A stretch of 41,685 nt of DNA from Methanocaldococcus sp. GTDB taxonomy: Archaea; AGJL01; Methanococci; Methanococcales; Methanocaldococcaceae. Positions 32,064 to 36,102 of this stretch are shown one piece after another (the first letter of the stretch is position 1; each line of letters starts with the position of its first letter). Below the pieces are notes generated by a model. That model made no database searches, was not told the DNA's origin, and saw nothing but the letters and a program-made list of their open reading frames with translations. The stretch lies in assembly GCA_027068365.1 (NCBI GenBank), contig JAMOTQ010000064.1, positions 1-41,685 on the forward strand, read 5' to 3'. Position numbers and translations under genes: made by a program.

Positions 32064-33276
32064 CATCTTCACCCATTAAAACATCTCTAAGTTCTCTGGA
32101 TAACCTATAATATACGTTGTTACCCTCCCTTTCTTTATAAATATACCCCATCTCATAAATATCTGATAAATGCGTTCCAATGGTGCTTGGTGATTTTTTT
32201 AGATATTCAGCCAACTGCGTTACAGTTGCTGAACCTCCAAGCTTTGCCATTGCCCTAACAATCTCTGATTGAGCAGGAGTTAAATGGTTTAATATCTGAT
32301 GCCCTACACTAATGCCAAGGGAATGCATCGCCTCCTTAACAATATGCTCATCTATCATAGTTAAGCCCTTTCTTATGGCTATTGATATTGATTCAGAGCA
32401 TGTCATTATTATCTTTCTTGGAATGCCGTCACATTCTTCAACAATTTTGTGGATGGCTTCATCAGTAAACGGCTCAAATTCCTCAGCCCCATCTATATGA
32501 GCATCTTCTAACCTCCTCCTAATTAAATCATACGACTCATCTTTTGATAAAGGCGGCATATTTATTATTTTTGGAATTCTATCCTTAATTGGTGGGGATA
32601 TCTTTGTTAAATCATCCATCAATGTTGGAGAACCAGCCATAAAGGTTAAAATTCCCTCTTCATACAAGAATGAGTGAAAGAACTGTAATAAAGATAAACA
32701 ACTCTTTTTCGCAAATTGGTCTGCTTCATCAATCAAAATTATACACAACTTATCATGGCTTTTAACTTCATTTATTAAATATTCTAAGTCCCTCTCAATC
32801 CTCTCCCTTGGATAATGAATAGGAACTTTATCCCCATAGTTGTTTAGTTTCCTATACATATCTAAAATTCTATTTGAATGTTCCATATAATCAGATTTTA
32901 TAGTCCCACTCACAGTTAGAATATTCTCAGTTAATATATTGTATAAAAGCTGAATTAAAAACTGTCTTGGTGTTACTTGGGAGGCAGTCATCTCAACAAC
33001 CCAGTGTCCCTGCTTTTTTGTAGCGTAATATATAATATTAAGCATTGAACTCTTTCCTATACCCTTAGTTCCAACTATTGCGGCATTTGCTACACTACCA
33101 TGCTGAGCAGAACCCAAAATCTCCCCTATTTCTCTCAACTCACTAACCCTACCAACAAAAAACTTCGTATTTCCTCTTATCGGCTTTTCAGAAAATGGGT
33201 TGTATTTTAGCTTTAATTTATGCATAGTGCTTGCTATTGAATTCGCTGATTTTTGTATAAACTCTATTGGGTCCAT
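32047..33276 (-). CDS. Divergent Orc1/Cdc6-like AAA+ ATPase, candidate origin-binding protein
   Basis: 409 residues from ATG 33276, set by GGTGG five bases upstream (the frame extends to 33294). AAA+ motifs: FFVGRVSELREI near 39-50 as box II, Walker A GTKGIGKSS at 69-77, Walker B IILIDEADQF at 179-188, sensor 1 TFMAGSP at 211-217, and a sensor-2 arginine in CDGIPRKI (about 287). A winged helix follows at 330-395 (TVTQLAEYLKKSPSTIGTHL). This is the layout of archaeal Orc1/Cdc6. The M. jannaschii counterpart, MJ0774 as I recall, was proposed as a distant Cdc6 homologue. It reads away from the repeat-rich gap at 33.3-34.0 kb. Confidence 0.82.
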   Translation of the reverse strand: MDPIEFIQKSANSIASTMHKLKLKYNPFSEKPIRGNTKFFVGRVSELREIGEILGSAQHGSVANAAIVGTKGIGKSSMLNIIYYATKKQGHWVVEMTASQVTPRQFLIQLLYNILTENILTVSGTIKSDYMEHSNRILDMYRKLNNYGDKVPIHYPRERIERDLEYLINEVKSHDKLCIILIDEADQFAKKSCLSLLQFFHSFLYEEGILTFMAGSPTLMDDLTKISPPIKDRIPKIINMPPLSKDESYDLIRRRLEDAHIDGAEEFEPFTDEAIHKIVEECDGIPRKIIMTCSESISIAIRKGLTMIDEHIVKEAMHSLGISVGHQILNHLTPAQSEIVRAMAKLGGSATVTQLAEYLKKSPSTIGTHLSDIYEMGYIYKEREGNNVYYRLSRELRDVLMGEDDELEM

Positions 33277-33982
33277 TATTTCCACCATCAACAATAATAT
33301 TGACTAATTTAAATAAATGGCTATTATGTTTTTCATTGGTTTCGGATTTTTGTTGATAGTGTATTATATAGATTTCGAAAACTCGAATAAATAACTCAAC
33401 GCTCAACATTCAATTATGTTATTACACAAAACTATGTAAATATATAACTATACAACGCAAACTTTTTAATATAAAAAAATCGTGAATCAAACAATAAAAT
33501 ACAAAAAATATCGTGAATCAAACAATTATATTGGTTGTGTAAGTAACCAAAATCCTCAGAAATAAACTTGAATAAAAATAAAAATAATATATATACTATC
33601 TCAATGAAATAAAGTTAATTTGAATTCTTCTCATCGTAATAACTACAAAACCAAAAAAACAAAATAACGTGAATCAAATTATATAATCAATAAAAAACTA
33701 TGAATCAAAGATTATAATCAAATTAACATAATCCTAAAATTTATAAAATGTATCAAATAAAATACAAAAATATCAACAATTTAGAAAAAAATAAATATTG
33801 GCTCCATCATAAGACATAATCAAATATAAATCCTTAAAATGTCAGTAATACTCTACCCAAAAACAATATGGTAAAACAATCTCGTGAATCAAAAAATTTA
33901 TAAACCAAAAAATGGAATATAATTGAACGCAATAATTTTAAAAAATCAAAATCAAATATAACATTTGCAGGAGGGATAATAA
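33277..33982. other. Repeat-rich, gene-free stretch: left part of the probable replication origin
   Basis: A 700-bp AT-rich gap between the Orc1-like gene and a divergent HTH gene. It contains no plausible gene but holds the GTGAATCAAA repeats (33481-33893) and a TCGAAAACTCGA box at 33375-33386 that recurs at 34517 and 34877. Gene orientation on both sides points away from this region. An origin next to orc1/cdc6 is the common archaeal arrangement, and an origin was proposed for M. jannaschii at the equivalent locus. Confidence 0.7.
33481..33893 (+). repeat. Five GTGAATCAAA repeats, two pairs spaced 31 bp
   Basis: TGAATCAAA begins at 33483, 33514, 33670, 33701 and 33885. Four of the five are preceded by CG, and the first two continue identically for at least six bases (ACAATA or ACAATT). 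The first and second, and the third and fourth, are each exactly 31 bp apart, about three helical turns. All are in one orientation. Irregular other spacings rule out CRISPR; iterons for an initiator are the natural reading. Confidence 0.8.
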
Positions 33983-34513
33983 ATGGATAGATTACCATAC
34001 GAAATTGTATCAACAATATTTAGGAAGGCAATTTTACATTATGTGTTAATACGTGGCACAACCTATCCTCAATCACTGGCAGAAAATTTAAATATATCGA
34101 AAGGTCTTGCAAGCTCTTTTTTAAGGTTATGCTCAGCTTTAAACATAATGAAAAGGAAAAGGATAGGTCATAAGGTTATATATTCATTTACCTCGAAGGG
34201 ATTGGCAGTATTAAAAAGATTAGCCCCAGAAATATTTGATTTGAGTTTTTCGAGTGTTTTCGAACAATTACCTAAAAAGAAAATTGCCACCAAGTATTAC
34301 CCAGTAGATAGAATAGGGTTTGAAATCAAGTGGAAAGAGGATAAACTTGGTGGAATAATTTTTTCATTCTTTGATTGCAACGGGGAGCATTTAGGAGACG
34401 TTTTTAGAAATAATAAAGGTTATTGGTGGTGTGTTATATGTCAGAGTGATTCATGCAAACATATCGATTACTTGAAAAAGCTCTATAAAACATTAAAAAA
34501 TCAAGATGAATAA
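33983..34513 (+). CDS. Helix-turn-helix protein with C-terminal Cys/His motif, inside the origin region
   Basis: 176 residues. A winged helix-turn-helix fills the first ~85 residues (TTYPQSLAENLNISKGLASSFLRLCSAL, then GHKVIYSFTSKGLAVLK). The C-terminal half has beta-like sequence and C-x2-C-x4-C-x-H (WCVICQSDSCKH), which could bind zinc. GGAGGGATAATAA precedes the ATG. The stop codon lies one base before the left arm of the 32-bp inverted repeat. Position between two repeat clusters and next to the Orc1-like gene suggests a DNA-binding role at the origin. I do not recognise a named family. Confidence 0.7.
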   Translation: MDRLPYEIVSTIFRKAILHYVLIRGTTYPQSLAENLNISKGLASSFLRLCSALNIMKRKRIGHKVIYSFTSKGLAVLKRLAPEIFDLSFSSVFEQLPKKKIATKYYPVDRIGFEIKWKEDKLGGIIFSFFDCNGEHLGDVFRNNKGYWWCVICQSDSCKHIDYLKKLYKTLKNQDE

Positions 34514-34514
34514 A

Positions 34515-34890
34515 TTTCGAGTTTTCGAGTTGCATGTATGTATATGGTTGGGAAAGTAAGGTAAATTTTTCAAGGACGGAATTATCACAAAATTAAAATA
34601 GGGAATAGTATATCCTATTTTGTGATATAAACGATTAACATCAGATATAAAAGCCAAATAACTGTTTTTGTGTTTTTGTTTATTAAAATAACCGTATTTT
34701 AATGTTATTTTTGTTATATATCATATATTATTTTGTATTATAATTTATATTATTATTTTTGTTTTGTTTTTACTTATATTGTGTAAAAAAATATAACAAT
34801 ATAATGCTTGTGCTTGTGATAATCACAACCATTAAGTGCTTGTGATGGGAATTTTTCGCATATACATACATGCAACTCGAAAACTCGAAA
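34515..34890. other. 32-bp perfect inverted repeat around a 312-bp AT-rich core
   Basis: The arms are 34515-34546 and 34859-34890, each with the TCGAAAACTCGA box at the outer side and the alternating purine-pyrimidine CATATACATACATGCA at the inner side. The core holds TTGTGAT or its complement five times (34584, 34620, 34814, 34822, 34840), including the palindrome TTGTGAT-A-ATCACAA. It also has an 8-bp hairpin AAAATAGG/CCTATTTT at 34595-34621 and long T- and AT-runs that would melt easily. No gene is present from 34514 to 35040. The rest, 34891-35040, shows only a repeated ACTGTCTAAT, also found at 35086. Confidence 0.75.
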
Positions 34891-35040: not shown

Positions 35041-36102
35041 TTATATACTTTTCGAAAATTCGAAGATTTGTATATCCCAAGGTATACTGTCTAATATAAA
35101 AATAGATAACCAGTGGAGATAGTTGTGCTTAGATTTTTTGAGAAGTGATAACAATATATTTCTATTTAACCTTATTCTAAACCTAATTTTATTTTTGTAT
35201 TTTACTTTTGTCAGTATCCCTAACTTAACCAAATCGTCCAAGTATCTATATAGTGTGGGTAATTTGTAATTGACCTTGTAGGCAATATCTTCGATTTTGA
35301 ATTTTCTAAGCTCTGTTATAACCTCAACTAATTTTCGATATTTCGCATCAACTATATAAGGCAATATTTTGAGCCATGGAATTTTTAGTTCTCTAAGATT
35401 TTTAATCTCTCTTTTTGAGTGTCTCAATATCAAATATATTATGTCTAAGTTTCCATTTGTTATATTTAGGAGGTATTCAGCCACTCTATCGCTTATGTAA
35501 TAACCATGAGCTTTTGCAAAGTATTTTATGGCTGCTTTTACATTTAAAATTGCTTCTGGGAAATTCCTTAAAATTTCTCCATGACAGTCAATAGGATACC
35601 TTATAACAACGCTTATGTTATTCTTCCTTAGCTCTTTAATAAAATTCAAAAAACTTTTTTTATAGTGCCACTTTCTTATATCATGGACATCAAAGACGAT
35701 TATTGGATTTAAAACTTTTAGTAAGGATATTATTTTTCCGACAACCTTTTCAAATTCCCATTTTCTTATGTTTTTAAATAAATCCCCAATTCCTCTATAC
35801 CATGTCTTTTTGGCTCTGTAATATTTGTCAAGTTCTATTTTTTTGCTCATGTATTCTAAGAGGTTTTTTAACCAAGTTGCCTTTTCATAATCTTTGAATA
35901 AATAATATTTGTCTTTAATTTGATAGGCAAGTTTTGCAATTGTCTTTTTTAGATTTGGTGTTGCTAAGACCCTTATTATTGGTATATTATTAACTACTTC
36001 AAAATTTCCATTTTCATCTAACTCTAACAAATTCCCCCTGTCAGTTGGAATTAAATACAGCCCGTTTAAAAATTCTTCTGGAACTGCCTTAATGATTTTC
36101 AT
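35041..36102 (-). CDS. Unknown protein resembling an Orc1-like ATPase without Walker A, plus winged helix
   Basis: 353 basic residues. A Walker-B-like strand IIVFDVHDIRKW (134-145) and a following SVVIRYPID strand resemble the AAA+ core. TNGNLDIIYLILRHS (215-229) resembles the AAA+ lid, and a winged helix follows at about 250-312 (KIEDIAYKVNYKLPTLYRYLDDL). No GxxxxGK[ST] is present, so ATP binding is unlikely. The order recalls the Orc1-like protein on the other side of the origin. The ATG overlaps cbiL by 14 bp, with AAAGGG upstream. TTCGAAAATTCGAA lies within its last codons. The relation to Orc1 is inference. Confidence 0.6.
   Translation of the reverse strand: MKIIKAVPEEFLNGLYLIPTDRGNLLELDENGNFEVVNNIPIIRVLATPNLKKTIAKLAYQIKDKYYLFKDYEKATWLKNLLEYMSKKIELDKYYRAKKTWYRGIGDLFKNIRKWEFEKVVGKIISLLKVLNPIIVFDVHDIRKWHYKKSFLNFIKELRKNNISVVIRYPIDCHGEILRNFPEAILNVKAAIKYFAKAHGYYISDRVAEYLLNITNGNLDIIYLILRHSKREIKNLRELKIPWLKILPYIVDAKYRKLVEVITELRKFKIEDIAYKVNYKLPTLYRYLDDLVKLGILTKVKYKNKIRFRIRLNRNILLSLLKKSKHNYLHWLSIFILDSIPWDIQIFEFSKSI

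Follow-up and report, generated by a model that had tools for sequence, protein, structure and literature searches.

The gene-free gap that carries a repeat array beside an Orc1/Cdc6-like gene in this Methanocaldococcus contig is probably, together with the DNA next to it, a chromosomal replication origin of the Orc1/Cdc6 type, built on a two-module plan common to the Methanococcales. Module A (33481-33893) is an array of five direct repeats within the gap, and module B, which falls outside the coordinates covered by the original prediction, is a long inverted repeat that encloses DNA of very low computed stability. Replication initiation in this order is an open question, with divergent or unrecognised Orc1/Cdc6 proteins, several MCM copies and an origin that is unmapped experimentally (PMC3984812, PMC5333045). 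What is new here is a fixed order-wide architecture, the second module and two natural experiments, one in Methanocaldococcus infernus and one in genomes apparently lacking orc; the candidate elements of the order are now exact, namely five boxes, two arms and one core. Their coordinates are collected in the table, where the window is the whole 41.7-kb stretch of DNA analysed (41,685 nucleotides).

Table. Coordinates of the predicted origin modules and neighbouring features in the window
Feature	Position	Strand	Remarks
Orc1/Cdc6-like AAA+ protein, divergent, C-terminal winged helix, 410 aa	32047..33276	-	Conserved start at 33276
Palindrome TTTCGAAAACTCGAAT	33374..33389		Adjoins predicted TATA box of the orc-like gene (33365-33372)
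Array site 1	33481..33491	+	CGTGAATCAAA; order-wide consensus TGAAYNNAA
Array site 2	33512..33522	+	30-31 bp past site 1
Conserved AT-rich block separating the two site pairs	33557..33633	+	From the alignment of relatives and model R1
Array site 3	33668..33678	+	156 bp past site 2
Array site 4	33699..33709	+	Core CTATGAATCAAA; 30-31 bp past site 3
Array site 5	33883..33893	+	184 bp past site 4; about 100 bp ahead of the HTH gene
Winged-helix (HTH) protein, 176 aa, invariant C-terminal CxxC-x4-CxH	33983..34513	+	Divergent partner of orc order-wide
Module B left arm TTTCGAGTTTTCGAGTTGCATGTATGTATATG	34515..34546	+	Just 3' of the HTH gene
Inner inverted motif ATTATCACAA	34581..34590	+	Paired with 34814..34823
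Least stable 60- and 100-bp stretch of the window	34695..34804		Inside module B; candidate duplex-unwinding element
Inner inverted motif TTGTGATAAT	34814..34823	-	Paired with 34581..34590
Module B right arm, the left arm repeated exactly in inverted orientation (32 bp)	34859..34890	-	344-363 bp palindrome-to-palindrome order-wide
Further palindrome TTTCGAAAATTCGAA	35051..35065		From the palindrome search

The original prediction had described five same-orientation copies of TGAATCAAA, and these are indeed found at 33483, 33514, 33670, 33701 and 33885, all on the forward strand and with no sixth copy on either strand of the window. The core of the boxes is TGAATNNAA, and four of the five sites extend to the 11-mer CGTGAATCAAA, which has no further copies in the whole assembly. 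Successive sites are separated by 31, 156, 31 and 184 bp, and TGAATCAAA is alone among the 9-mers of the window in having at least five same-strand copies within 420 bp. The clustering far exceeds chance: in simulated gaps (n=20,000) drawn from composition models of the AT-rich gap, no more than two same-strand copies were seen at order 1 and three at order 2, while five were reached once at order 3, where training on the gap builds part of the repeat into the model. A genome-wide count of the motif, named beforehand as a test that could overturn the prediction, showed it to be concentrated at this locus, with 5 of the 23 copies in the 1.38-Mb assembly lying in the gap and the remaining 18 scattered elsewhere. 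The gene layout also bears out a gene-free gap beside a divergent Orc1-like gene, closed on its other side by the small HTH gene, and scans of the window with Rfam and for tRNAs gave no match.

The array boxes differ, as had been proposed, from the origin recognition boxes (ORBs) of Sulfolobus and Pyrococcus, since the canonical core TCCA..GAAA, accompanied in some groups by a G-string, is absent from them. The motif was found not to be an unknown one on comparison with the predicted ORB motif listed by Ori-Finder 2 for the Methanococcaceae, TT[TA][GT]ATTCA[TC][GA]AT[AT]T[AT]T[AT] (PMC4164010, Table 1). On alignment the array motif is the reverse complement of that published motif and is not new, the five sites showing 0, 0, 1, 1 and 2 mismatches to it. 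As a genome-wide finder the published 18-mer was rejected, as it gave 129 matches with two mismatches allowed against 124 for a reversed control, and only its clustering is specific.

To follow the array beyond the window, we compared the orc-HTH gaps of 25 Methanococcales genomes together with the array of M. infernus, 26 loci in all. Here we take genome G007 to be M. jannaschii and G010 to be M. infernus, and the genus names used for the other genome groups are likewise our assignments. The five sites recur across the 26 loci with order and strand unchanged, and a spacing of 30-31, 155-157, 30-31 and 181-185 bp fits 21 of them, so that the conservation of spacing in relatives, whose absence had also been named in advance as a possible refutation, held. 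The claim that the pairs are phased at exactly 31 bp applies to both pairs in the window and needs loosening elsewhere: the first pair stands at 30 bp in M. jannaschii as well as in several more genomes, and the second at either 30 or 31 bp. Full spacings are 30/156/31/184 in M. jannaschii, 31/156/31/184 in M. infernus and, despite a different core (TGAATATAA), 30/156/30/181-182 in Methanococcus-like genomes. The 156-bp interval is 147 bp in two Methanotorris-like genomes, and three genomes (G021, G025 and G026) keep the first pair while the remaining spacings deviate. Site 1 lies anywhere between 116 and 357 bp from orc, while inter-site spacing is nearly fixed. Mean information is 1.67 bits in the TGAAT columns and 0.57 in the others; as the alignment procedure favours matches, spacing is stronger evidence than this column conservation. 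A sequence model spanning the AT-rich block and the second pair (R1) has a single strong full-length match in each locus-bearing genome, except for the same three deviating genomes and one with a contig end there, and no second strong full-length copy was found in the locus-bearing genomes. Within the genus the paired pattern is restricted to the locus, bar one match. A lone CGTGAATCAAA in genome G005 was set aside, its contig having no array; the end of that contig reads as a recombinase-like gene.

The genes on either side of the array are conserved as a divergent pair. They are ordered as in the MJ0774/MJ0773 region of M. jannaschii, and by position we take the orc-like protein to be MJ0774-like and the HTH protein MJ0773-like. 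An orc1/cdc6-type gene adjoins the array in the window and in nearly all array-bearing relatives, the exception being M. infernus, and beyond orc lies a GTP cyclohydrolase folE2/MptA-like gene. The orc-like protein scores 39 bits against a curated TIGR02928 cut-off of 181, which none of the 15 genomes tested passes, M. jannaschii included. Its fold matches are led by ORC and Orc1 chains, although the model is of low confidence (pLDDT 60) and is supportive only. The HTH protein matches no Pfam or NCBIfam family above threshold but resembles ArsR-type repressors, its fold matches comprising many ArsR-type regulators and the centromere-binding protein AspA. Among the genomes searched it is confined to orc-bearing Methanococcales, and in Methanococcus, where the array persists, it is only 33-36% identical. 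Its divergent arrangement with orc is conserved, which suggests that this protein functions in replication, and as both neighbours contain winged helices the binder of the array is ambiguous between them. Further along, at 35041-36102, is a 353-aa protein with no significant family match and only sub-threshold helix-turn-helix matches; a similar ORF comes after module B in M. infernus (L036:1359-2399).

Module B (34515-34890) has its arms at a near-fixed separation in 22 of 23 genomes, the right arm being unclear in the remaining one (G022). Measured palindrome to palindrome, this separation is 359-363 bp in Methanocaldococcus (351 in one genome), 360-361 bp in Methanotorris-like, 354-356 bp in Methanothermococcus-like and 344-346 bp in Methanococcus-like genomes, and the inner pair ATTATCACAA/TTGTGATAAT is present in most Methanocaldococcus genomes and in the Methanotorris-like ones. 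By computed stability, module B holds the weakest 100 bp of the 3.7-kb locus in all 12 Methanocaldococcus genomes measured, and this stretch ranks in the top 0.014% of the sampled genome for instability in M. jannaschii and the top 0.011% in M. infernus; the two Methanotorris-like genomes differ in having their stability minimum near the orc start. Judged on these computed values, the core and its inverted arms form an easily unwound AT-rich element flanked by boxes, and the AT-rich block between the array pairs also qualifies as such an AT-rich element. The palindrome TTCGANNTTTCGA is concentrated at the locus genus-wide, with one copy at the orc promoter. A copy 29-38 kb from the array was considered as parS-like and rejected because it sits inside a conserved coding gene. 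In several species (L144-L148, L150 and L151) TTCGAGTTTTCGA is found within an acetylornithine-aminotransferase-like gene, as coding rather than regulatory conservation.

The proposal that an initiator sits beside its own repeat is supported by the concentrated motif, the conserved spacing and the adjacency of orc, but it proved too simple when M. infernus was considered. In this species (L036) the HTH gene is grouped with the complete array and module B at 105-107 kb, and orc is 190 kb distant at 297 kb, which suggests that a rearrangement broke the chromosome between the array and orc. It follows that neither module depends on an adjoining orc and that neither can be an orc promoter only, making M. 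infernus a natural experiment that separates the predicted origin from its initiator gene. The second natural experiment is provided by eight genomes carrying a single genus label (G014, G017, G027, G029 and G032-G035, with loci L041-L043 for three), in all of which an orc of the locus family, an HTH homologue, a credible array match and a module B arm went undetected; G014, G017 and G029 are estimated to be 99% complete, and several of the eight are incomplete. These same three retain the MptA-like gene, which in G014 is flanked by genes unrelated to orc. Joint absence of orc, HTH protein, array and module B fits one functional system, although the same picture would result if one linked block had been lost. 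The eight genomes are candidates for orc-independent replication and may replicate without a fixed origin, as has been reported for Thermococcus kodakarensis (PMC5663688).

In the origin model that we favour, the boxes of module A would act as initiator boxes arranged as two close pairs, with partners some three helical turns from each other, and one single site, bound as ordered pairs by the divergent Orc1/Cdc6-like protein, perhaps together with the HTH/Cys-His-motif protein. Binding would lead to opening of the DNA in module B, where the dyad arms enclose the stretch of the region that melts most easily, MCM would be loaded there and forks would start at the locus. This division of labour between the modules is our own proposal, and either alone could be the core replicator. 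Archaeal unwinding regions are usually flanked by inverted ORBs, and the single direction of the array counts against the origin reading; such inverted ORBs are drawn in PMC4010727. A bolder reading, which we hold tentatively and with some doubt, is of a two-module origin unlike other described archaeal ones, with a one-directional, rigidly spaced array of non-canonical boxes and a separate long dyad around an unwinding core, with the HTH/Cys-His protein as a second initiator or co-initiator, and with the entire system lost from one sublineage, whose replication does without it. The role suggested for the HTH protein draws on M. infernus, in which its gene, rather than orc, has both modules beside it.

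The same arrangement can be read differently, with the array as a transcriptional control region whose operators would serve the divergent promoters of orc and the HTH gene, and with the HTH protein bound there as an autorepressor. Such a role would suit an ArsR-repressor-like protein whose gene keeps the array in M. infernus when orc does not, and it would account for site 5 being directly upstream of the TATA-like box of the HTH gene (TTTATAAA) and for a TTCGA palindrome at the predicted orc promoter. Sites 1-4, however, lie some 200-400 bp from the HTH promoter, and rigid spacing around a conserved AT-rich block would be unusual in an operator; the array also persists in Methanococcus despite the divergence of its HTH protein, and module B would require a separate explanation. 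We consider this control-region reading unlikely, if the most serious of the alternatives.

Less likely again is a role in chromosome partition, in which the locus would be centromere-like and either module B or the palindromes would stand in for parS. Origins often have partition sites nearby, palindromes are clustered here within a few kb, and AspA is among the fold matches of the HTH protein, albeit alongside many ArsR-type regulators; yet the sole distant palindrome copy shared between species sits in a coding gene, where conservation of the protein accounts for it, no parA-like gene turned up in the neighbours examined, and partition does not need symmetric arms around the most melting-prone DNA. 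Iteron-like direct repeats next to an initiator-like gene could also be the iterons or relic of an integrated mobile element, but this is very improbable and is strongly disfavoured by the comparative conservation data, which describe one orthologous locus order-wide with conserved neighbours, strong constraint on the sites and the single R1 match per genome noted above.

Compositional skew, computed from sampled 20-kb stretches, is equivocal and neither proves nor refutes an origin at the locus, being suggestive in M. jannaschii and uninformative in M. infernus. In M. jannaschii, of which 48% was sampled, GC skew passes from -0.24 to +0.23 across the locus, the ORF orientation changes there from -1.0 to +0.73, and the cumulative ORF orientation has its global minimum there, whereas the cumulative GC minimum is at 291 kb, slightly below a local minimum at the locus. 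The sampled stretches of M. infernus show no extremum at either the array or orc. Published skew and marker data for M. jannaschii, with multiple polarity changes, have been read as multiple origins (PMC3269012).

The M. jannaschii array lies in the cdc6-adjacent gap predicted to hold the origin, with module B at 693,633-694,006. Zhang and Zhang reportedly used the Z-curve in 2004 to place the M. jannaschii oriC at about 694,540-695,226, an interval that covers the array gap and excludes module B; their prediction concerns the same intergenic gap, and its coordinates agree with the array position found here. It is cited in PMC5333045 and PMC2643942; a single M. jannaschii oriC is given as identified by Z-curve (PMC4164010), and a review classes it as purely in silico (PMC5333045). 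For Ori-Finder 2 and DoriC, PMC4164010 gives the motif without the five-site layout, the fixed spacing, the companion inverted repeat or the unlinking from orc. In the searchable literature, which excludes the original 2004 paper, we found no description of the layout, the spacing, module B, the M. infernus arrangement or the eight genomes in which the whole set went undetected, so that the novelty of the spacing, module B and the M. infernus arrangement is provisional.

Compared with the ORB origins of Pyrococcus, Sulfolobus (oriC1) and the haloarchaea, the locus shares an AT-rich region, repeated boxes and an orc1/cdc6 gene alongside, and module B has inverted elements flanking an AT-rich core. 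It differs in its unidirectional array, in boxes that lack the TCCA-GAAA consensus and in having two separate modules with a gene in between. Bacterial and plasmid origins with iterons or DnaA boxes offer a second comparison, from which the locus departs in its Orc1/Cdc6-like AAA+ initiator candidate and in boxes with no sequence relationship seen, and which it resembles in its direct repeats, their fixed spacing near a helical multiple and their closeness to a melting-prone region.
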